This document shows positions 3,228 to 15,448 of a DNA stretch of 64,000 bases, piece by piece (positions within the stretch are counted from its first letter, which is position 1; every line of letters begins with the position of its first letter). A program made the position numbers and the translations under genes. The notes under the pieces were generated by a model. That model was not told the origin of the DNA. It saw nothing but the letters and a program-made list of their open reading frames with translations, and did no database searches. This DNA comes from Salinirussus salinus (GTDB lineage: Archaea > Halobacteriota > Halobacteria > Halobacteriales > Haloarculaceae), in contig NZ_WOWO01000003.1 of NCBI RefSeq assembly GCF_009831455.1, forward strand, positions 434,001 through 498,000. Direction: 5' to 3'.

Positions 3228-3473
3228 ATGGGCATGACTATCCCAGCGTTCGTGGGCATCCCCGGCGGACCGGAACTGTTGATCATCCTCGCCATCGCCG
3301 TCCTGCTGTTCGGTGCGAACAAGCTCCCGAGCCTCGCGCGCTCGTCGGGGCAGGCGATGGGCGAATTCAAGAAGGGCCGCCAGGAGATCGAAGAGGAGAT
3401 CCGCTCGGCGGCGAGCGACCAGGAGGGTATCGACCCCGAGACCGGTGCCGAAGAGGCGTCCGAACCGGCCTGA
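3228..3473 (+). CDS. tatA: Sec-independent protein translocase subunit TatA (81 aa)
   Basis: TatA forms the oligomeric pore of the twin-arginine pathway, which carries a large share of haloarchaeal exported proteins. Residues 11-29 (IPGGPELLIILAIAVLLFG) are the short N-terminal membrane helix ending in the family FG hinge. An amphipathic helix follows at about 32-62 (KLPSLARSSGQAMGEFKKG and beyond), then an acidic tail. An ATG three codons downstream is an alternative start. No tatC lies in the window. Many RR-signal proteins downstream (LivK, both PstS, and the SRRK-type SipW proteins) are plausible clients. Confidence 0.92.
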   Translation: MGMTIPAFVGIPGGPELLIILAIAVLLFGANKLPSLARSSGQAMGEFKKGRQEIEEEIRSAASDQEGIDPETGAEEASEPA

Positions 3474-4441: not shown

Positions 4442-5272
4442 ATGAGGCTCAGTTCGTCGACGCTGTCGCGCTTCCGGGTCCGCCGACCCGAGTACACCGG
4501 CCCGAACCGGTGTCCCCCCTGTACCGCAGTCAACCTCGCGCTCGCGGCGGCCGGGACTGCCGCCGTCGCGCTCCTCTCGCCGCCCGCCGCCCTCGTGGTC
4601 GGCGTTCTCTCGCTCGCACTCGTCTACCTCCGGGGCTATCTGGTGCCCGGGACGCCCGAACTGACGAAGCGATACCTCCCCGAGCGGGTCCTCGCGTGGT
4701 TCGGGAAGGCCGACGCCCCGACGAGCGACGTCGACCCGGGCGTGGTGCTCGCCGCCGCGGACGTCCTCGTCGAGGAGCCCGACGGCGCCGACGTGACGCT
4801 GGACCCCGCGTTCGCGTCGGCGTGGGCCGACCGGACGCGCGAGCTGTCGGCTGACGACGCCGCCCCCGTCCTCGCTACCGGGGTCGGTGCCGCCGGGGCG
4901 GAGCTGGCGGTGACCCCCGCCGGCGAGGGGCTGGCAGCGACGGTTCACGGCCGGCAGGTAGGCACCTGGGAGTCCCCCGTTGCCTTCCGTGCGGACGCGG
5001 CTGCGATGGAGCTGCTGGCCGACCGGGTCCCGACCTGGGACCGACTGAGCATCGACGCCCGCAGCGAGACCACCGGGGCCCTCCGGCTGCTCGCGGAGAC
5101 CTGCCCATCCTGCGGCGGCCCGACCGCACTGGAGGAGGGGACCGTCGAGTCCTGCTGTGCGAGCTATCCGGTCGTGGCGGTCCGGTGTGGCGACTGCCAG
5201 GCCCGCCTGGTCGAGATGCGCCTGACAGAGGAGATGCTCGCGGCCGAGCCCGACCCCGTCTCGCTCGGGTAG
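4442..5272 (+). CDS. Uncharacterised membrane protein with C-terminal zinc ribbon (276 aa)
   Basis: I do not recognise a named family. Residues about 28-65 contain two hydrophobic helices close to the N terminus. A soluble acidic middle follows, and a cysteine cluster ends the protein: CPSC at 221-224, CC at 238-239 and CGDC at 249-252, arranged like a zinc ribbon. It is divergent from the HTH regulator at 3619-4239 across about 200 bases, so the two may share control. The ATG is the first plausible start, with TATACCTATA about 35 bases upstream. Function is unknown. Confidence 0.72.
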   Translation: MRLSSSTLSRFRVRRPEYTGPNRCPPCTAVNLALAAAGTAAVALLSPPAALVVGVLSLALVYLRGYLVPGTPELTKRYLPERVLAWFGKADAPTSDVDPGVVLAAADVLVEEPDGADVTLDPAFASAWADRTRELSADDAAPVLATGVGAAGAELAVTPAGEGLAATVHGRQVGTWESPVAFRADAAAMELLADRVPTWDRLSIDARSETTGALRLLAETCPSCGGPTALEEGTVESCCASYPVVAVRCGDCQARLVEMRLTEEMLAAEPDPVSLG

Positions 5273-5985: not shown

Positions 5986-6128
5986 GTACGCCCCGGTACG
6001 CTTCTGTCGGCCATCTGAGACGATCTGGTACGCGAACCGTACGTATCCGGCTGCGAGCGGTACGACATCCCAACGCGACCGGTACGGTTCACGTACGGAC
6101 CGGCCAGCGACCGGTACGGGTCCCGTAC
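5986..6128. promoter_or_regulatory. Helically phased GTAC operator array
   Basis: This lies inside the 352-base gap between the HTH gene and the first SipW-type gene. GTAC occurs at 5986, 5996, 6028, 6039, 6060, 6082, 6093, 6114 and 6125. The steps are 10, 32, 11, 21, 22, 11, 21 and 11 bases, so all sites fall on nearly the same DNA face. Most sites sit in CGTACG, GGTACG or CCGTAC contexts, and 6114-6128 is a perfect palindrome, GTACGGG-T-CCCGTAC. The array ends 30 bases before the TATA box. The rest of the gap holds no credible gene. Confidence 0.7.
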
Positions 6129-6163: not shown

Positions 6164-6283
6164 TCGGCGTTTCGGGGCTCGAGTCGGCTGAACGAGTGCA
6201 TAGGTAATACCCGACCTGTGCTGGGGGGTAGTATCCCCAGACGACCCAGTCCACGCCGGATGGATCGTCGGGATACCAAAACC

Positions 6284-7609
6284 ATGACCGACGACAAACT
6301 CTACACACTGTCGCGCCGCAAGATGCTGGCCGGGCTCGGAGCCATCGGCATCGCATCCGCCGGCGCGGGTATCGGTACCTCCGCGTACTTCAGTGACCGC
6401 GAGTCGTTCAGCGGCAACACGCTCACCGCCGGCTCGCTCGACATGCGCGTTCTCTACGAGACCTCCTACGACAGCGACGGGGCCGTCCAGAACCAGGTCG
6501 GCTCCGCTATGGGCACCCAGGACGGCGAGCCCGCGAGCACGTTCTACGAACTGGACGACGTGAAGCCCGGCGATTCCGGTCACGTCGAGTTCTGCTTCGA
6601 GATCGTCGACAACCCATCCTACGTGTGGGCCTGCGGTGACATCTCCGAGTCGGAGAACGGCTTCACCGAGCCCGAGAGCGAGGTCGACAGCACTGAGAAC
6701 GGCGAACTGGCCGAGAGCATCGACGCCCGGCTGGTCTACTGTAACGAGGTTGACGGCGAGTTCGTCGAGGGCGAGGAGATAGTCTCCGGCAGCCTCCTCG
6801 ACGTCTTTGCCGCCATCACCGGTGGCGCAGCCCTCGATGGCTCCGGTGCCGCCGGGCTCGCACCGGGCGACCAAGCTCCCTACAGCGAGGAAGTCGAGGT
6901 CACGGACGGCCCTGACTACATCACCGGCCCCTGCCTGTGCCTGTTCTGGGAAGTTCCCACCTCGGTGGGCAACGAGATCCAGACGGACACGCTGTCGATG
7001 GCCCTGGAGTTCCACGCGGTCCAGTCCCGCCACAACGACGGCACCGCCAACCCCTGCACCCCGAGCATCACCACCCGGACCGGTGAGGGCTTCGCCAAGC
7101 AAGAGGAGTTCGCGACCCAGCAGGAGACTTCCTTCGCACGCGGGCGCTACGGTGACAACCTCGCCGCCGGCGCCTGGGAAGTCGCGGTCGGCCCGGACGT
7201 GGGCAGTGCCACCACGGCGAACTACGTCTGGACCCCCGGTAACACCGTCCCGTTCAGCTACGAGTACGACGGCAGCCAGGCCTCGTTCACCCTCGACGGC
7301 GTGAGCGTCGCCAGCGCGATCCCGGCACCCTCGGGCAAGCTCGCCATCACGACCAAGGCCGACGAGGCGACTGTCAGCGTCGCGAACCTCGCGCTCGAAC
7401 TGAACGGCGTGGCCACGACCCTCTCGGGTCCCGACGCCGTCTCCGCGAGCAACGACGGCAGCGGCCGCGACCTCACCTACCTGGTCTTCGACACCGACGC
7501 CGCCGACGTGGCGGCCCCGTTCGAGATCAGCGGGGACGTCACCGTCGACGTCCAGGGTGACTACTCCGGCAGCGACGAGGACGTCGCCTTCGACATCAGC
7601 ATCGAGTGA
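6284..7609 (+). CDS. SipW-dependent TasA-like exported protein, A1 (441 aa)
   Basis: Residues 1-40 form a SipW-type signal peptide: SRRKMLAGLGAIG, a hydrophobic core, then TSAYFSDRESF, with cleavage expected near AYFS/D. The mature start NTLTAGSLDMRV is the usual TasA/camelysin beginning. A shared beta-sandwich follows in two halves: DDVKPGDSGHVEF...GDISESENG (about 91-152) and SLLDVF...FWEVPTSVGNEIQ...SRHND (about 170-252). A private C-terminal beta domain occupies about 280-441. The start MTDD was chosen because the two following paralogues begin MTDDNQLYNLSRRK. It heads a cluster with its own signal peptidase and is probably a surface or fibre protein. Confidence 0.82.
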   Translation: MTDDKLYTLSRRKMLAGLGAIGIASAGAGIGTSAYFSDRESFSGNTLTAGSLDMRVLYETSYDSDGAVQNQVGSAMGTQDGEPASTFYELDDVKPGDSGHVEFCFEIVDNPSYVWACGDISESENGFTEPESEVDSTENGELAESIDARLVYCNEVDGEFVEGEEIVSGSLLDVFAAITGGAALDGSGAAGLAPGDQAPYSEEVEVTDGPDYITGPCLCLFWEVPTSVGNEIQTDTLSMALEFHAVQSRHNDGTANPCTPSITTRTGEGFAKQEEFATQQETSFARGRYGDNLAAGAWEVAVGPDVGSATTANYVWTPGNTVPFSYEYDGSQASFTLDGVSVASAIPAPSGKLAITTKADEATVSVANLALELNGVATTLSGPDAVSASNDGSGRDLTYLVFDTDAADVAAPFEISGDVTVDVQGDYSGSDEDVAFDISIE

Positions 7610-7656
7610 CCACCGCCTGAACCGTCTCAGACCAACCAACAACACACAACACGACA

Positions 7657-9084
7657 ATGACCGACGACAACCAACTGTACAACCTCAGCAGGCGGAAGCT
7701 ACTCGCAGGCCTGGGGACAGTGGGGCTCGCCTCCGCTGGCGCCGGCCTCGGCACCTCCGCGTTCTTCAGCGACCGCGAAGCCTTCGAGGACAACCGCCTC
7801 ACCGCGGGCACGCTGGACCTGAAACTCGACTACAAGGCGACCTACCTCGGCGGCCCGGGCCGGCTCGACGCCGTGACGGCGATGGGCTACCCCGACGCCG
7901 AGGACCTCGGCGAGGGCCGGTACCTGCTCGACCAGGCACCGAGCCCAGCCGACATGCAGGCCTGGGAGGACCTCGTCCAGGGCGAGGAGTTCGACTTCTG
8001 CTCGCTCGAGGCCGACGAATTCCTGGTCAACGGCAGCGGGATCCCGATGTTCACACTTGAGGACGTGAAACCCGGCGACTCCGGCGAGGTGACCATCAGC
8101 GTCCACATCTGTGACAACCCCGGCTACGTCGAGCTGTTCGGCGACCTCTCCGAGGCCGAGAACGGCGAGACCGAGCCCGAAAGCGAGGTCGACGACACCG
8201 AGGGCGGCGACCTCGCGGACGCCATCGAGGTCTGCGTCTGGTACGACGAGGACTGCGACAACGTCTACGAGCCGACCGGCACCGGCCAGCAACAGGAACT
8301 GGAGGTCGCGCTCGTCAGTGACGTCTCCGGTTCGATGGGCGGCGCACCGCTGTCGGCGCTGAAGACCGCCGCGACGAATTTCGTCGACAACCTCTCCTCG
8401 CCGGACGAGGCCGCGGCGGTCTCGTTCAACAGTGGCGCCACGACCGACCAGGAGCTGACGACCAACTACCAACTCGTCCAGAACGCGATCACCAGCTACA
8501 CCGCGGGTGGCGGCACCTCTATCGCGGCCGGCGTGAACGAGGGTGCCGACGAGCTCCTCAACGGGACCAACGCCACCCCGGGCGCCTCGAAGGTGATGAT
8601 CCTCCTGAGCGACGGACAGTCCAACGCCAGCGCAGCCATCGCAGCCGCCGACGCCGCGAAGAACGCGGGTATCCGCATCTTCACCATCGCGCTGGGCAAC
8701 GCGGACACGAGTCTCTTGGAGAGTCTCGCAACGTCGCCCGACGACGCGTTCGTCGCGCCGAACCCCGCCGACCTGGACACCGTCTACGCGGAGATCGCAC
8801 AGGTCGTCCTCGCGGGCGAACAGAAGATCGCCGAGGGGACGATGAGCGAGGTGTTCGACCAGCTCGCCGACGGCGTCCTGCTGGACGGCAACCGCCAGGA
8901 GGAGGGCGTCCAGCCCTACCCCGGCGCGACCACCCAGTGTATCGGCTTCGAGTGGACGCTCCCGACAGACGTGGGCAACGAGGTCCAGTCCGACTCGGTG
9001 ACCTTCGACATCGGCCTGGCGGCCGAACAGAGCCGCCACAACGACGACCCCGACCCGTACGCTCCCACTCCCACGGCGGAGTGA
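7657..9084 (+). CDS. SipW-dependent TasA-like protein with inserted VWA domain, A2 (475 aa)
   Basis: The signal peptide is nearly identical to its neighbours (SRRKLLAGLGTVG...TSAFFSDREAF), followed by NRLTAGTLDLKL. The TasA-like first half ends with EDVKPGDSGEV...VYEP at about 136-206. A von Willebrand A domain follows at about 215-385, with a complete MIDAS: D222-x-S224-x-S226, T287 and D319. The second half resumes with MSEVFDQLADGVLLDG and GFEWTLPTDVGNEVQ...SRHND at about 395-463. The VWA domain is thus inserted at the point where A1 has only a short linker. A metal-dependent surface-adhesion role is inferred. The start is the ATG 47 bases after the A1 stop. Confidence 0.82.
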   Translation: MTDDNQLYNLSRRKLLAGLGTVGLASAGAGLGTSAFFSDREAFEDNRLTAGTLDLKLDYKATYLGGPGRLDAVTAMGYPDAEDLGEGRYLLDQAPSPADMQAWEDLVQGEEFDFCSLEADEFLVNGSGIPMFTLEDVKPGDSGEVTISVHICDNPGYVELFGDLSEAENGETEPESEVDDTEGGDLADAIEVCVWYDEDCDNVYEPTGTGQQQELEVALVSDVSGSMGGAPLSALKTAATNFVDNLSSPDEAAAVSFNSGATTDQELTTNYQLVQNAITSYTAGGGTSIAAGVNEGADELLNGTNATPGASKVMILLSDGQSNASAAIAAADAAKNAGIRIFTIALGNADTSLLESLATSPDDAFVAPNPADLDTVYAEIAQVVLAGEQKIAEGTMSEVFDQLADGVLLDGNRQEEGVQPYPGATTQCIGFEWTLPTDVGNEVQSDSVTFDIGLAAEQSRHNDDPDPYAPTPTAE

Positions 9085-9163
9085 CCGGGTGAACCGACGG
9101 GCAGGGCCGTTCCGGCCCCGCCCCGACCGTGGTCCGGGGGTCCCGGACCGACCCTTCAGAAAC

Positions 9164-10933
9164 ATGACTGACGACAATCAACTGTACAACCTCAGCAGGC
9201 GGAAGCTGCTGGCGGGCCTGGGGACCGTGGGGCTGGCATCGGCCGGCGCCGGTCTCGGGACCTCCGCGTTCTTCAGCGACCGCGAATCGTTCACGAACAA
9301 CAGCCTCCGCGCCGGCGAGCTCGACCTGCTCGTCGACTGGCAACAGACCTACGACGGCCCCGCCGAGAGCGCGGTCTACGGCTCGGCCGGCCGCCCCTAC
9401 GTCAACGCCTACCCCGACAGCGACGGTGACGGGGTCCAGGACGACGTTCCCCAGTCCTTCGTGGTCTGGGCGAAGCGCAACGGCTACGACCTGAACACCG
9501 CTGCCGGCCAGTCGGCCGCAGTCGCCGCGTTCAAAGACGCCTTCTTCGCGGACCTGGGCGCGGGCAACGACTGGGAGGCGCCGCTGGTCGCACTCGACGA
9601 CGTGAAGCCCGGCGACACCGGCGAGGTGACGCTGTCGCTGCACTTCTTCGACAACCCCGCATACATCCGGATGCTCGGGGACCTGACCGGCGAGGCCGAG
9701 AACGGGCTCACCGAGCCCGAGGCCGAGGTGGATTCGACCCCCGACACCGGCGAGCTCGGCGAGAGCGTCGACGTGCTCGTCTGGAACGACGACGGCGACA
9801 ACGTCTACGAGCCACGGAACGGCCAGGACGTCGACGTCGTCGTCCTGTTCGACACCTCCTGTTCGATGGAGTGGGCCGACTCCTCCGCGGGATGTAACGC
9901 AAACGAAAACACGCCCGCGCCGAACAAGTTCCCGCAGGCACAGGCCGGCGCGAAGGCGCTGTTCGAGGAGCTGCTGGCCGAGCCCGACGTCTCCGGGCTG
10001 GGCCTGCCCGCCGACATGATTCCGGACGCGAACGTCCGCGTCGGACTCGTCGAGTACGGCAACGACACCGGGGTCAAGGTCCCCCTCGGGGACGACCTGG
10101 ACGCGCTGCGCAACGAGGTCGACGCGATGTCCCCCGGCAACAGCACCCTCTTGCCGACCGCACTGGAGGAGGCCATCGACATGCTCGAGGGCAGCGACGC
10201 CGACGAGAAGTGCGTCGTCGTCATCGGTGACGGCCAGCCCCACGACACGGGCAACAACGAACCCGGAAGCGGCTCGCCCGTGAACCCGCTCTCCGGCGTC
10301 ACCTACGACGACTGGGGGGCGACCTACTCGGTCCAGCTGACCGAGTACCTCGAGGACGTGGTCGGCGCGAACGTGCTGACCGTCCACTACGAGGTCGAAC
10401 CTGAGGTGAGCCTGGCGACGGGGATCGACACGGCCTACGCCCAGGGCACGGCCCCGAACTACGACATCGTCGACGGGGAGATCCAGACCATCGAGCTGTT
10501 CGAGATCATGGCCTCGCCGGTCAGCGGCGACCCTCTCGACATCAACCGTCTCTCCTTCGCCGCGGACCGTGACCGGCTGGTCTGTGTACTCCACCGGATC
10601 GCCCACCTCTGTGCCGGCGAGGTCCCGCTGTTCTACGGCAGCCTCGACGGCGCGCTGGAGGCGCTTGACGACGGACTCCTCCTCGTGGGGAACCCCCGGG
10701 TCGCGGCCGATCCCGAGAGCGACGCCCCCGTCCGGGAGTGTCTGGAGTGGTCCTGCACCTACTACGTCGGCTTCGAGTGGGCCGTCGACCCGGCGGTCGG
10801 CAACGAGATCCAGTCCGACTCCCTCGAGTTCTCGCTGGGCTTCGAGGCCGAGCAGTGCCGGCACAACGACGCGCCCTTCGAGAGCGAGGACGCCGAGCCC
10901 GCCGGCCAGGAGGTCACGCAGACGGCGGACTGA
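9164..10933 (+). CDS. SipW-dependent TasA-like protein with inserted VWA domain, A3 (589 aa)
   Basis: The signal peptide and LRAGELDLLV mature start match A2. Residues 85-94 read DSDGDGVQDD, a calcium-loop motif of the EF-hand or thrombospondin-3 kind. The first TasA-like half is at about 145-216 (DDVKPGDTGEV...DNVYEP). A longer VWA domain follows at about 223-480, with MIDAS residues D230-x-S232-x-S234, T328 and D356. The second half (GALEALDDGLLLVG, GFEWAVDPAVGNEIQ, CRHND) is at about 495-569. The VWA contains extra cysteines not present in A2. The start was chosen by its near-identity to A2; in-frame codons further upstream are not conserved. Confidence 0.82.
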   Translation: MTDDNQLYNLSRRKLLAGLGTVGLASAGAGLGTSAFFSDRESFTNNSLRAGELDLLVDWQQTYDGPAESAVYGSAGRPYVNAYPDSDGDGVQDDVPQSFVVWAKRNGYDLNTAAGQSAAVAAFKDAFFADLGAGNDWEAPLVALDDVKPGDTGEVTLSLHFFDNPAYIRMLGDLTGEAENGLTEPEAEVDSTPDTGELGESVDVLVWNDDGDNVYEPRNGQDVDVVVLFDTSCSMEWADSSAGCNANENTPAPNKFPQAQAGAKALFEELLAEPDVSGLGLPADMIPDANVRVGLVEYGNDTGVKVPLGDDLDALRNEVDAMSPGNSTLLPTALEEAIDMLEGSDADEKCVVVIGDGQPHDTGNNEPGSGSPVNPLSGVTYDDWGATYSVQLTEYLEDVVGANVLTVHYEVEPEVSLATGIDTAYAQGTAPNYDIVDGEIQTIELFEIMASPVSGDPLDINRLSFAADRDRLVCVLHRIAHLCAGEVPLFYGSLDGALEALDDGLLLVGNPRVAADPESDAPVRECLEWSCTYYVGFEWAVDPAVGNEIQSDSLEFSLGFEAEQCRHNDAPFESEDAEPAGQEVTQTAD

Positions 10934-10954
10934 CTTCCGGCAAACGAAGCCGGT

Positions 10955-10990
10955 GTACGGCCTCCGTACGCCGCTGTACGGACCTCGTAC
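10955..10990. promoter_or_regulatory. Second, internal GTAC operator array
   Basis: GTAC occurs at 10955, 10966, 10976 and 10987, in steps of 11, 10 and 11 bases. The sites form inverted pairs: GTACGG-CCT-CCGTAC at 10955-10969 and GTACG-GACCT-CGTAC at 10976-10990. The array ends about 28 bases before a weak TATA-like CATACCTAT at 11018-11026, the same geometry as the array upstream of A1. This suggests the downstream half of the cluster has its own coordinately controlled promoter. Confidence 0.62.
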
Positions 10991-11065
10991 CGGTTCGGAC
11001 GCGGCCGGGAACGACTCCATACCTATCCCCCCGGCAGTCGAGGGGAGGACAACGAACACAACACT

Positions 11066-11905
11066 ATGCAACTGACACGTCGGCAGCTACTGGCCGGCAT
11101 CGGCGCCGGCGCACTCGGGGTGACCGGGGCGAACCTGACCCGCCAGGAGCCCCGCTACACCCACTACACCTACGCCTCGGACGGCGACCTCGACGACCGC
11201 CGGGTCCGGGTCGCGTGGTACGAACGCTACAACGGCGTCGCCCTGGAGAGCCAGGCCGGGCCCGCCGAGGCCAGCCTGACCGAGACACTCGACCCCGGGA
11301 CCGACCCCACCTACGTCCACGACCCGACGGACGTGACGGCCGTCAACGGTCCCGTCGTCACCGTCGGGAACGTCCTCCCCGGTGACGAGGGGACGCTCGT
11401 GGTCGGGCTCGAGGCCGTCGACGACGGCGACCTCCTCGCGGAACCGGTCGACGTCTGGCTCCGCGGGGTCGTCACCGACGACGCGGAGGGCGGGCTGAAC
11501 GAGGCCGAGGCCGCCGCGGGCGACCGGTCGCCCGACGACGGCGAGCTCGACGAGCGGGTCACCGTCGCGCTCTGGCGGGACGGCTCGCCGCTTGGCTCCT
11601 GTAACGGCCGCCGGGAGTTCTCCGAGGCCCTGGAGGCGCCGCTGGTCGAGCGGGCCCCGCTCGGGACCGCCTTCGGTCCCGACAGCGACGTCGGCGACGC
11701 CGACGGCCAGCGCGTGCTGACCGGGCTCACCCCCGGGTCGGCGCGCTGTTTCGCGCTCGCGTGGTCGATGCCCGACGCCGACGGCGTCAACGTCGCCCAG
11801 GGCGACAGCGTCGCCTTCGAACTCGCCTTCGGGGCCGTCCCCGCCGGCGCCGCGAGCCCGTTCCCTGTGGCGCCGACGGTCCAGCCGACGGAGGTGGGGC
11901 CGTGA
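11066..11905 (+). CDS. TasA/SipW-like exported protein, divergent, A4 (279 aa)
   Basis: It opens MQLTRRQLLAGIGAGALGV, a short RR-containing signal, but lacks the FSDxE cleavage motif of A1-A3. The two conserved strands of the family are still recognisable: GNVLPGDEGTLVV...GGLNEAEA with DDGELDERVTVALW (about 99-175), and ALAWSMPDADGVNVAQGDSVAFEL near 230-255. It is the first gene after the internal GTAC array and overlaps the next gene by 4 bases. It may be a minor subunit or anchor of the same surface structure. Function is inferred from neighbours only. Confidence 0.7.
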   Translation: MQLTRRQLLAGIGAGALGVTGANLTRQEPRYTHYTYASDGDLDDRRVRVAWYERYNGVALESQAGPAEASLTETLDPGTDPTYVHDPTDVTAVNGPVVTVGNVLPGDEGTLVVGLEAVDDGDLLAEPVDVWLRGVVTDDAEGGLNEAEAAAGDRSPDDGELDERVTVALWRDGSPLGSCNGRREFSEALEAPLVERAPLGTAFGPDSDVGDADGQRVLTGLTPGSARCFALAWSMPDADGVNVAQGDSVAFELAFGAVPAGAASPFPVAPTVQPTEVGP

Positions 11906-13131
11906 GCCTCACCCGCAGGCGCGTGCTCGCGGCGCTGGCTGCGGCCGGCGGCGCCGGCGCGCTCGCCGGCCAGGGCACCGGCGCACTCCTCCGGGACAGC
12001 GAGGGGACGGGCGGCGAGCTGACCGCCGGTCTCGTCGACCTCACCGTCGCCTACTGGCAGGGTGACCCGACGGCCGTCGACCTCGACGACCCCGACGGCG
12101 TCGCCGACGGGCCACGGCTCGCGCTCCCGATAGCCGTTCCGGCGGACGGGACCGAGGGCCGGACGCTGCTGCGGTTCTCGCTGCCCGAGTCGGCGCGGGG
12201 AGTCAACAACCCCGCGAGCCTCTGGCTCCGGGCCGACTGCCCGGCGCAGACGACGCTCGCGGAGCTGCTGGGCGTCCGGCTGCGGTACTCGGACGCCGAC
12301 GGAACGGCCGGCCCCCGCATCGACGAGGGGTCGCTACGGGAGGTCGCTGAGGGGCTGCGGACCGGCCGCCGGCTCGACGGCGACGGCGACCCCCCGAACG
12401 GCTTCGACTGCCTGACCGACGACCTGTTCGTGCTCGTGGAGTACGACCTCCAGGGCTACGTCGGCAGCGAGACCGTCGAGTTCGCACTCGACGTCGCCGC
12501 CGTCCAGTGTCGCAACAGCGACCCCGACCGGAACCCCTTCGCCCCGAGTTCCCCCGACCCCTGCCCGCCCGCCTGGCGCTGTGACTGCTGCTGGCCGGTC
12601 GGGAAGGTGGAGGTCGACGAGCCCCTCGAAGCGGGCCGGACCTACGCCTTCGACGAGGGGCTGGTCGGCTACGCGCTCGACGTGACCGCCGTCGACGGCG
12701 ACTCGGGCGTGGCCTTCGAGCTGGTCTCGACCGACGGCGGCCCCGTCCTCCCGCTCTGTGCGGTGGCGGTCAAGGGTGGCCCGAACGATGCCCAGTACGA
12801 GCGCCCCGACGACACCTACGGATTCGACACGGGCGTCCTCGACGGGGCGGTCGACGGGGTCATCAGCGCGCCGGAAAACCCCAACAGCGGCGGCCGCTAC
12901 GCCATCAGCTACGTGCTCGTGAGCGTCTGCGCGCCGACCCTCGAGGGCGGGGACTGTCCCGAACCGCTGGCGAAGCCCGCGGCGAGCGTCGACGGGCCGC
13001 CGTCGACGCCCGGGTCCGGGGACGGCCCCGGACCGAACCCCGGGCCGAAACACGCCGGGGGCGGAGCCGACACGTCCGGCGGGGGCGCCGCGCCGCCGGC
13101 CGAGTCCGGTGAGACTGGAGGGGGCGAATGA
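11902..13131 (+). CDS. SipW-type exported protein with proline/glycine-rich tail, A5 (409 aa)
   Basis: The GTG start overlaps the A4 stop (GTGA). The N terminus reads VSLTRRRVLAALAAAGG...GALLRDSEGT, then GELTAGLVDLTV, the family's mature-start signature. Later strands FSLPESARGVNNPASLWL and VEFALDVAAVQCRNSD correspond to the conserved halves of A1-A3. Residues about 218-226 hold a cysteine cluster (CPPAWRCDCCW), followed by an extra beta domain. The end is disordered, rich in Gly, Pro and Ser, perhaps a spacer at the envelope. An upstream in-frame ATG lies inside A4 and was rejected. The gene overlaps the signal peptidase by 4 bases. Confidence 0.75.
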   Translation: MSLTRRRVLAALAAAGGAGALAGQGTGALLRDSEGTGGELTAGLVDLTVAYWQGDPTAVDLDDPDGVADGPRLALPIAVPADGTEGRTLLRFSLPESARGVNNPASLWLRADCPAQTTLAELLGVRLRYSDADGTAGPRIDEGSLREVAEGLRTGRRLDGDGDPPNGFDCLTDDLFVLVEYDLQGYVGSETVEFALDVAAVQCRNSDPDRNPFAPSSPDPCPPAWRCDCCWPVGKVEVDEPLEAGRTYAFDEGLVGYALDVTAVDGDSGVAFELVSTDGGPVLPLCAVAVKGGPNDAQYERPDDTYGFDTGVLDGAVDGVISAPENPNSGGRYAISYVLVSVCAPTLEGGDCPEPLAKPAASVDGPPSTPGSGDGPGPNPGPKHAGGGADTSGGGAAPPAESGETGGGE

Positions 13132-14165
13132 GCCCGCTCGGCCGGCTCCGGTCGGCCAACAGCTCCCGGGCCCGGAAGGTGGCGGTCGCGCTCGCCGGGG
13201 TGCTCCTGGTGGCGGCGGTGGTCCCCTTCGTCGTCTTCGCGGTCCCCCAGGTCGTCGGCGCGGACCACGGCTACGTGATCCTCTCCGGGAGCATGGAGCC
13301 GGCGCTCTCGCCGGGTGACGTGGTCATCGTGGCCGCAACCGCGGAGGTCGCCGCGGGCGACATCGTCACCTTCGACGACGGCAACGAAGTCCCGACGACC
13401 CACCGGGTGGTCGGCACCCAGGACGGCCAGTTCGTCACGAAAGGTGACGCGAACGAGGAGCCCGACAGCCGGCTGGTCGCGCGGGAGAGTCTCGTCGGCA
13501 AGGTGGTACTGACCATCCCGCTTGTCGGCCACGTCATCCTCTGGGCGAACACCCCGACCGGCTACGTGGCGATGGTCGTCGCGCCGCTGGCCCTGCTGCT
13601 GGTCACAGAGCTGTACAGCTGGGCGCGCCGCGGTGACGCCGCTGACACCGCGCCCGACGGTGTCGACGACACGGAGAACGAGGACGACGCGCCGGCCGCG
13701 AGCACTGACGCCGACCAGGCGGACGATGCGGAGGCCGCTGCAGCGGAGGCCGACGCCGAAACCGATACCGAGGCGGAGGCCGACGCGGACACCGATGCGG
13801 AGGCCGACCCGGAGACGGACGCTGAGACGCCGTCGCGGGCCGGTACCGTCGCGGTGGCGGTCGCGGACCTGAAGCTCACGCTGCTGGCCTCCGGGACGTT
13901 GCTGGCGTACGCGGGCTGGAACGTCTACGGCGAGGTGACCGTGGCTGCGGCCCCGGACCCGGTGTCGGTGGGCGCGGCGACCGCCGGCGGGCTGGGCCTG
14001 CTGTTTGCCGGCTGGGTCACCGTCGGCGCGTGGCACCGTGCGAGAACGGCCGACGACTCCGGGAGCGCGTCCGCGACGGAGCCGCTGGCAGCGGAGACCG
14101 ACGGCGGGACCGACACGGGCGGGGAGCCCGACGCCGACGGCGCGGACGCGGAGGCAGACCGATGA
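13128..14165 (+). CDS. Signal peptidase I (archaeal/ER type, SipW-like) with acidic tail and extra membrane helices (345 aa)
   Basis: A membrane-embedded serine protease of the S26B type. Residues about 17-44 form the first membrane helix. ILSGSMEPAL carries the catalytic Ser55. His92 in TTHRVV replaces the bacterial Lys, as in the archaeal/ER branch, and Asp107 lies in KGDAN. A second helix at about 143-163 would normally end the enzyme. Here a ~70-residue Asp/Glu/Ala-rich linker (about 168-238) and two more helices (about 244-264 and 279-301) follow, then another acidic tail. Its position directly after five SipW-type substrates argues that it is the dedicated processing enzyme. Confidence 0.88.
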   Translation: MSPLGRLRSANSSRARKVAVALAGVLLVAAVVPFVVFAVPQVVGADHGYVILSGSMEPALSPGDVVIVAATAEVAAGDIVTFDDGNEVPTTHRVVGTQDGQFVTKGDANEEPDSRLVARESLVGKVVLTIPLVGHVILWANTPTGYVAMVVAPLALLLVTELYSWARRGDAADTAPDGVDDTENEDDAPAASTDADQADDAEAAAAEADAETDTEAEADADTDAEADPETDAETPSRAGTVAVAVADLKLTLLASGTLLAYAGWNVYGEVTVAAAPDPVSVGAATAGGLGLLFAGWVTVGAWHRARTADDSGSASATEPLAAETDGGTDTGGEPDADGADAEADR

Positions 14166-15448
14166 AACGAACAGTCGTTATCTTCGTCGCCCTCATGGCC
14201 GCCTTCGCGGCCGCGACCGGCGGCGTCGTGGGCGGTGAGGGAACGTCCGCTGGACGGCTCGGCGACACCGAGGCCGTCGACGTCACGTTCAGCGCGAGCA
14301 GCGACGGCACGGACTTCGCCGTCCGGGAGCCGGTCCCCGACGCGCGGGCGGCCGGCGACGGCGCCGGTCCCGGGCCCGGAGCGAAGCGCGGGTCCGGCGA
14401 CAGCGGCCCCGTCGCCACGGCCGCTGGAAACGCGACCGGTGACGGACCGGGAACGACCGGGGCACCGACGCCCGCGACGGCCGGAAACGGGACGGCCGGT
14501 AATCCGGAACCCCCTGCAGGAGACACCGGTGACCGGCCAGCCTCCCCCTCCGGGAACCGCACCACCGACGCGGGCGAGAATGCCGCCGGCGACCCGGCCG
14601 GGAACGCCACCGCCGGCCCGGGCGGGAACGTCGCCGTCGACACCGACGGGAACGCGACCGCCGTCGGACACGACAACGCGACCGCCGTCGGACACGACAA
14701 CGCGACCGCCGTCGGAAGCGGTGACCCGGCCGGCGGTGAGGGCGGCAACGCCACCGCTGGTCTGGGGGAGGATCCCGACCCGGACATCGCCGACGCGGCC
14801 GACCCGTCCCAGCCGGGGACCAACACCTCCGACGGCGGCCAGGTGGGTGACGGGGTCGCCGAGCCCACGGCAGCCGCCGGTGCGGACACGGACGACGACA
14901 GCCTCGCGAACGCCACCGCCGAGGCTCCGTCAGACGACGACCCGGCGGCCTCAGGGACGGGCGCGGGGAACGCGACGGCCACCCCGCCCGCCGGGACCGA
15001 CACCCCGGGGGCGAATTCGACGGTCGCCGACGGCTCCGAACCCGCCGGCCCCGCGGTCGAGGCGTCAACGACCGACAGCGCCACCGCGACGCCGGACCGG
15101 ACCGCAAACGGCTCCGGAACGGAGGACACGCAGACGGCCGACGCGACCGCTCCGGCCGGGGAGGGCGACCCCGACTCCGACGGCGAGGCCGTCGGCGCGG
15201 ATAGTGGGGGCGCCGCTACGGACGGCGAGGACACCGCTGCGGATACCGAACCCTCTGACGCAGACGGAGGGGCCTCCGCCGCGACGGATCAGCCCCCCGA
15301 CGCGGAGGACGAGAGCCCCGACGCCGGCGACGATACGGCCGCCACGGAGTCTGAGGCCCGGGCGGACGACGCGCCGTCCTCGACGGGGACGGACTCCACC
15401 GGTGGGGGCGGTCCCGCCGAGGGGACCACCTCCGCCGACGGCGAGTGA
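14162..15448 (+). CDS. Secreted low-complexity, N-glycosylation-sequon-rich (mucin-like) protein (428 aa)
   Basis: No known fold is visible. Residues 1-25 (MKRTVVIFVALMAAFAAATG) form a Sec-type signal peptide. The remainder is almost entirely Ala, Gly, Asp, Thr, Pro and Asn. At least a dozen N-x-S/T sequons are spread along it (NAT, NGT, NRT, NTS, NST, NGS), including a tandem block near residues 163-187. Such composition suggests an extended, heavily glycosylated surface or matrix protein. It overlaps the signal peptidase by 4 bases and closes the cluster. No C-terminal membrane anchor is present, so it may be released or bound by its partners. Confidence 0.7.
   Translation: MKRTVVIFVALMAAFAAATGGVVGGEGTSAGRLGDTEAVDVTFSASSDGTDFAVREPVPDARAAGDGAGPGPGAKRGSGDSGPVATAAGNATGDGPGTTGAPTPATAGNGTAGNPEPPAGDTGDRPASPSGNRTTDAGENAAGDPAGNATAGPGGNVAVDTDGNATAVGHDNATAVGHDNATAVGSGDPAGGEGGNATAGLGEDPDPDIADAADPSQPGTNTSDGGQVGDGVAEPTAAAGADTDDDSLANATAEAPSDDDPAASGTGAGNATATPPAGTDTPGANSTVADGSEPAGPAVEASTTDSATATPDRTANGSGTEDTQTADATAPAGEGDPDSDGEAVGADSGGAATDGEDTAADTEPSDADGGASAATDQPPDAEDESPDAGDDTAATESEARADDAPSSTGTDSTGGGGPAEGTTSADGE
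14651..14716 (+). repeat. 24-bp tandem repeat inside the mucin-like gene
   Basis: A 24-base unit beginning AACGCGACCGCCGTCGGA occurs at 14651-14674 and 14675-14698, with a partial third copy at 14699-14716. It encodes NATAVGHD repeats, so each unit adds one glycosylation sequon. Confidence 0.85.

Follow-up and report, generated by a model that had tools for sequence, protein, structure and literature searches.

A haloarchaeal operon that probably encodes a Tat-exported TasA-like fibre with VWA-bearing subunits

In this study, we analyzed a stretch of 64,000 nucleotides (hereafter the window; positions 434001-498000 of contig C3, NZ_WOWO01000003.1) from the 3.37 Mb genome of the haloarchaeon Salinirussus salinus. 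It carries seven co-directed genes on the plus strand (6284-15448). Five of them, A1-A5, code for exported proteins; the other two code for a signal peptidase of type S26B (SP) and for a secreted protein that is acidic and bears sequons (SEQ). The genes of the second half are joined by 4-base overlaps (A4/A5, A5/SP and SP/SEQ). A first-pass annotation had delimited the same cluster and had read it as a SipW/TasA-like surface or matrix assembly system. Fibres of the TasA type hold Bacillus biofilms together and are also known from hyperthermophilic archaea. Our results agree with that reading, as the mature A proteins have a predicted TasA-like fold, the peptidase is SipW-like and the gene set recurs in nearly all of 27 related loci (20 from genomes and 7 from named records). 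We consider it probable that the product of the operon is an extracellular TasA-like fibre that is exported by the twin-arginine translocation (Tat) system and has built-in adhesins, although its polymerisation is inferred. Beyond the first-pass annotation, we observed Tat signals, genes for TatA and DUF7344 proteins, von Willebrand factor type A (VWA) domains inside the fold and a possible TapA-like role for SEQ.

Analysis of the signal regions revealed that A1, A2 and A3 share the pattern SRR..LAGLG...ASAGAG.GTSA[YF]FSD.E, which combines a twin-arginine motif and a SipW-type signal in one. These three, already picked out as SipW-signal proteins at first pass, are the only proteins in the whole genome that passed the TIGR04088 cut-off for such signals; A5 gave a sub-threshold match in the same search (E 0.2). 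The Arg-Arg pair is invariant in all four A-family alignments, and by this motif A1-A5 are predicted Tat substrates, so that export and not a cytoplasmic location is expected for them. A4 and A5, called divergent at first pass, are without the full SipW box but are not unrelated to the other three. With signals removed, the A1, A2, A4 and A5 families were mutually homologous (hhalign probability 99.1-100%), and by this comparison one mature domain is common to all five proteins. The A families also have in common the motif (K/L)PGD and, towards the C-terminus, a strand of the form N..Q.D...F...F.A.Q, both less clear in A5.

When the A1-type profile was compared with profiles of PDB entries, TasA gave a match that was collinear over most of its length and weak (E 0.1); the A4 profile matched in the signal region only. 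Because the TasA match stood beside chance immunoglobulin matches, sequence alone was not accepted as proof of a TasA fold, and structure comparison was used. The A1 domain was modelled with AlphaFold2 (mean predicted local distance difference test, pLDDT, 70; predicted template modelling score 0.70). In Foldseek, TasA ranked first against this model (probability 0.99), and in a VIA-align comparison with 983 chains the three best matches were all TasA (Z 9.2, 9.1 and 8.1), with other folds at 7.4 or lower and the Sulfolobus 0406 thread filament at 5.7. The archaeal pilus protein AbpA was absent among the VIA-align matches listed, a list that cannot exclude likeness. On this model, the fold of A1-A5 is predicted to be a TasA-like beta-sandwich. 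For residues ~36-50 of A1, which follow the cleavage box, the model was mostly low in confidence, and its beta core starts at residue 53; the N-terminal stretch of TasA that corresponds to this part provides the donor strand (PMC9674648).

VWA proteins were noted at first pass; A2 and A3 each carry a VWA domain with an intact metal ion-dependent adhesion site (MIDAS), set in a hairpin of the TasA-like sandwich. The VWA domain of A2 (214-388) splits two strands that are adjacent in A1 (A1, ARLVYCNEVDGEFVEGEEIVSGSLLDVF; A2, VCVWYDEDCDNVYEP - VWA - GEQKIAEGTMSEVF). The MIDAS residues of this domain are D222-S224-S226/T287/D319, and such residues were intact in at least 29 of 31 sequences. Its best structural match was Mfa5, the tip protein of type V pili (Z 26.7 over 173 residues, 29% identity), and the sortase pilus adhesin SpaC was also among the matches. 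At least one VWA-bearing subunit was present in 26 of the 27 loci, and at least one VWA-less subunit likewise in 26. We infer that a VWA-bearing subunit would keep both the donated strand and the receiving groove.

SP, earlier assigned to S26B, belongs to archaeal signal peptidase I (TIGR02228, 88.3 bits against a cut-off of 51.85), and is the best match among the three genes of this kind in the genome; motif alignment showed that it keeps the Ser, His and Asp residues. The Bacillus SipW model gave 73.5 bits for SP, 86.5 and 113 for relatives and 30.4 for L009, another of the genome's three signal peptidases. As none of the scored peptidases reached the Bacillus-specific SipW cut-off of 190, SP is, judged by these scores, SipW-like and not SipW sensu stricto. 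SEQ contains 13 N-X-S/T sequons against 2.8 expected by shuffling (none of 2000 shuffles was as high), which bears out its description as a sequon-rich partner. Conservation of this richness in the SEQ family was rejected, as counts vary from 0 to 19 among relatives. In nearly all loci SEQ comes after SP, and most of its relatives have a hydrophobic N-terminus, a [LF][LFT].D.E-like box, an alternating strand-like stretch and a tail with 81-98% disorder-type residues (94% in SEQ itself). No family was matched by SEQ in Pfam and TIGR scans. We regard it as a candidate TapA-like starter, at most an analogue.

The gene order was searched in haloarchaeal genomes, as had been suggested, and the gene set was kept together in about 26 of the 27 related loci. 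The recurring order is DUF7344a, g4442, DUF7344b, at least two TasA-like genes, A4, A5, SP and SEQ, with variations that include a missing g4442 or A5. A4 had matches in 34 of 195 genomes of the order, its nearest named relatives being from Halorientalis and Natronomonas species. The gene set is widespread, with SipW signals in 23 of 59 sampled haloarchaeal genomes, 22 of which also contained a SipW-like peptidase (Fisher p 7e-13; the test counts each genome as independent, an assumption that does not hold for related genomes). Of 72 SipW signals, 64 were located less than 20 kb from a SipW-like peptidase, and the distance between the two was 5.1 kb or less in all 22 genomes that had both. The distribution was patchy in this sample: apart from the genome of the window, its family was represented by seven genomes, of which one had the system. 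In Halorientalis marina (L062), the cluster is carried by a 421 kb plasmid; this location and the patchy distribution suggest transfer of the cluster. Some loci (L046, L049, L054 and L055) have at least five TasA-like paralogues, which suggests expansion. A literature search on DUF7344, haloarchaeal SipW/VWA operons, TasA with VWA and Haloferax camelysin found no description of the operon, which is weak evidence as it covered open-licence papers only.

Several further features lie upstream of A1 (Table 1). The TatA gene is one of two Pfam TatA_B_E matches in the genome, and a TatA gene was found near the cluster in 10 of the 27 loci. DUF7344 is a predicted DNA-binding domain, as read from its helix-turn-helix (HTH)-like sequence, and both the divergent position of DUF7344b and the position of DUF7344a are conserved in related loci. 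No Pfam family was above cut-off for g4442. The phased promoter reported at first pass was confirmed: the nine GTAC sites are spaced by 10, 32, 11, 21, 22, 11, 21 and 11 bases, near multiples of 10.7 bases, with a phase concentration of 0.98, and none of 20000 random placements was as periodic. The 32- and 21-base spacings are kept in four Halorientalis-like loci (L041, L061, L062 and L063), and eight GTAC sites were found in L066. The phasing likely comes from a regulator bound to one face of the helix, for which DUF7344b is a candidate by its position. An element like TGCATAAGTAATACC is conserved upstream of the first gene in L041, L047, L061, L062, L063 and L066; the copy in the window, TGCATAGGTAATACC, lies at 6196-6216, ~80-90 bases before A1, and is a possible core promoter. 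At the other end of the array of A genes, A5 closes with a Cys-rich C-terminal domain (12547-13131) whose last strand is of the ISYVLVSVC type.

Table 1. Features of the cluster and its upstream region (positions in the window; TM, transmembrane)
Feature	Position	Strand	Basis
TatA-like Tat translocase subunit	3228..3473	+	Pfam TatA_B_E 61 bits
DUF7344a, predicted HTH regulator, at least one C-terminal TM-like segment	3619..4251	-	PF24035 E 1.8e-30; hydropathy; position conserved
g4442, conserved neighbour, two TM-like segments, Cys-rich C-terminus	4442..5272	+	hydropathy; recurrence in many related loci
DUF7344b, second predicted HTH regulator, divergent from operon, TM-like segment	5410..5931	-	PF24035 E 7.5e-26; hydropathy
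Phased array of nine GTAC sites 5' of A1, candidate regulator-binding array	5986..6128	.	spacing/phase test
A1, Tat/SipW signal, TasA-like domain ~53-256, C-terminal choice-of-anchor W domain 270-438	6284..7609	+	
A2, Tat/SipW signal, TasA-like domain interrupted by VWA ~214-388	7657..9084	+	
A3, same layout as A2, longer; VWA-bearing TasA-like	9164..10933	+	
A4, twin-arginine signal without SipW box, TasA-like domain, VWA-less	11066..11905	+	
A5, twin-arginine signal, degenerate SipW box, TasA-like domain and Cys-rich C-terminal domain	11902..13131	+	
SP, SipW-like S26B signal peptidase (Ser-His-Asp), acidic loop, further C-terminal TM-like segment	13128..14165	+	
SEQ, hydrophobic N-terminus and short strand-like stretch before a long tail that is acidic and disordered, 13 sequons	14162..15448	+	

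In the mechanism that we propose, the Tat system, possibly with the locus's own TatA, would export subunits that are already folded, and SP would cut them at the A-[YF]-[FL]-[SN]-D box. The short N-terminal segment freed in this way would be donated as a strand to the subunit that follows, in the manner of TasA and of the archaeal bundling pili. A VWA domain placed in a hairpin should disturb neither the donor strand nor the acceptor groove; A2 and A3 could therefore be incorporated at any position in the fibre and serve as lateral adhesins, with binding via the MIDAS metal ion. SEQ offers a strand and apparently has no folded domain of its own; for this reason it would start or cap the fibre like TapA, with its charged tail outward. 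Control of expression would fall to the DUF7344 proteins together with the phased GTAC sites. If the subunits are indeed exported folded, donor-strand assembly would have to begin from folded monomers. The VWA domains within subunits would make adhesion possible along the whole fibre and not at the tip alone. A picture that combines all of this, in which subunits fold in the cytoplasm and rearrange outside to polymerise, VWA adhesins are lateral, the TapA-like starter is disordered and N-glycosylated, and membrane-bound DUF7344 acts on the phased promoter, is possible but in our view doubtful.

Several observations speak against a fibre or leave parts of it open to question. The Foldseek match of the A1 model to TasA had an E value of 0.007 and TM-scores below 0.4, the confidence of the model was moderate (mean pLDDT 70), and sequence similarity to TasA was weak, with chance immunoglobulin matches scoring level with it in the PDB profile search. 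The SipW box is lacking in A4 and degenerate in A5, and that of SEQ in the window is degenerate too (GTSAGRLGDTE), so SEQ may be left uncleaved. One related genome had signals and no detected SipW-like peptidase, and two showed the reverse; among the control genomes, Haloferax volcanii matched the signal model and not the SipW peptidase model, so this species may rely on an ordinary signal peptidase to process a protein of this kind. The fibre proposal, which was built from sequence, model and comparison, is weakest in polymerisation, in the part assigned to SEQ, in the cut by SP and in the dependence of export on Tat.

The same proteins might form a surface adhesin complex that does not polymerise, in which Tat-exported, SP-cut A proteins act as separate VWA adhesins and carriers on or near the S-layer and the TasA-like fold is a mere scaffold. 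Intact MIDAS residues in the VWA domains would suit such a complex, a TasA-like fold by itself is no proof of polymerisation, and the cluster genes include no chaperone or usher. However, nearly all loci combine subunits of one fold with and without a VWA domain, the flexible stretch that follows the cleavage site occupies the place of the donor strand of TasA, and a SipW-like peptidase is retained with the A proteins. We regard the adhesin complex as unlikely.

Much less probable still is that the A proteins are metalloproteases of the camelysin type (Pfam Peptidase_M73), secreted and equipped with VWA modules for substrate binding. This family was just reached by A3 (23.2 bits against a gathering score of 22.5, over ~47 N-terminal positions) and approached from below by A1 and A2, yet the match is limited to the signal and the first strand, and the A1 model best matches TasA filament proteins. 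The HExxH motif was found in none of the proteins, and a protease function was set aside for this reason. A search of the genome with PF12389 gave no match at E 0.001, and that model alone is no useful marker here. Haloarchaea adhere by type IV pili, and VWA minor pilins occur elsewhere, which would favor a type IV pilus-like system with such pilins. We find this hardly credible, since the signals are of the SipW type with a matching S26B peptidase and not of class III, the model predicts an all-beta sandwich of the TasA kind and not a pilin with a long N-terminal helix, and no assembly ATPase family was found among the genes scanned around the cluster.

Among known systems, the operon resembles tapA-sipW-tasA of Bacillus subtilis in the TasA-like fold, the SipW-type signal, the SipW-like S26B peptidase encoded in the same operon and a secreted accessory protein as the possible source of the first strand. 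In contrast to that system, it has twin-arginine signals, five subunits with VWA domains within two of them, an accessory protein in which no folded domain is recognisable and whose disordered tail is acidic and bears sequons, and TatA and DUF7344 regulator genes beside the operon. TapA itself has a folded immunoglobulin-like domain and a donor N-terminus. In SEQ, the hydrophobic N-terminus is followed by a strand-like segment and then by the disordered tail. The archaeal bundling pili of Pyrobaculum calidifontis are described as built by donor-strand assembly from an archaeal TasA-like filament protein, AbpA (PMC9674648, PMC10151520), features that the proposed fibre would share; the present system differs in being haloarchaeal and in its Tat-type signals, VWA insertions and multi-gene operon with its own peptidase. 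The sipW-calY1-bc_1280-calY2 operon of Bacillus cereus also combines SipW with several exported proteins, two of them TasA-like (PMC10151520). There are thus two TasA-like subunits in B. cereus and five here. To our knowledge, the B. cereus operon has no VWA subunit or TatA. The thread of Sulfolobus acidocaldarius (Saci_0406) is another archaeal donor-strand filament, to which the A1 model showed the weak structural match given above. Its predicted export involves a Sec signal and ordinary signal peptidase I, with no VWA domain or dedicated peptidase described (PMC9715654), in contrast to the twin-arginine signals, VWA domains and SipW-like peptidase found here. Finally, Mfa5, whose VWA domain is structurally closest to that of A2, and SpaC belong to other types of pili, whereas in the present operon the VWA domain is inserted into a TasA-like subunit that would retain its own N-terminal strand.

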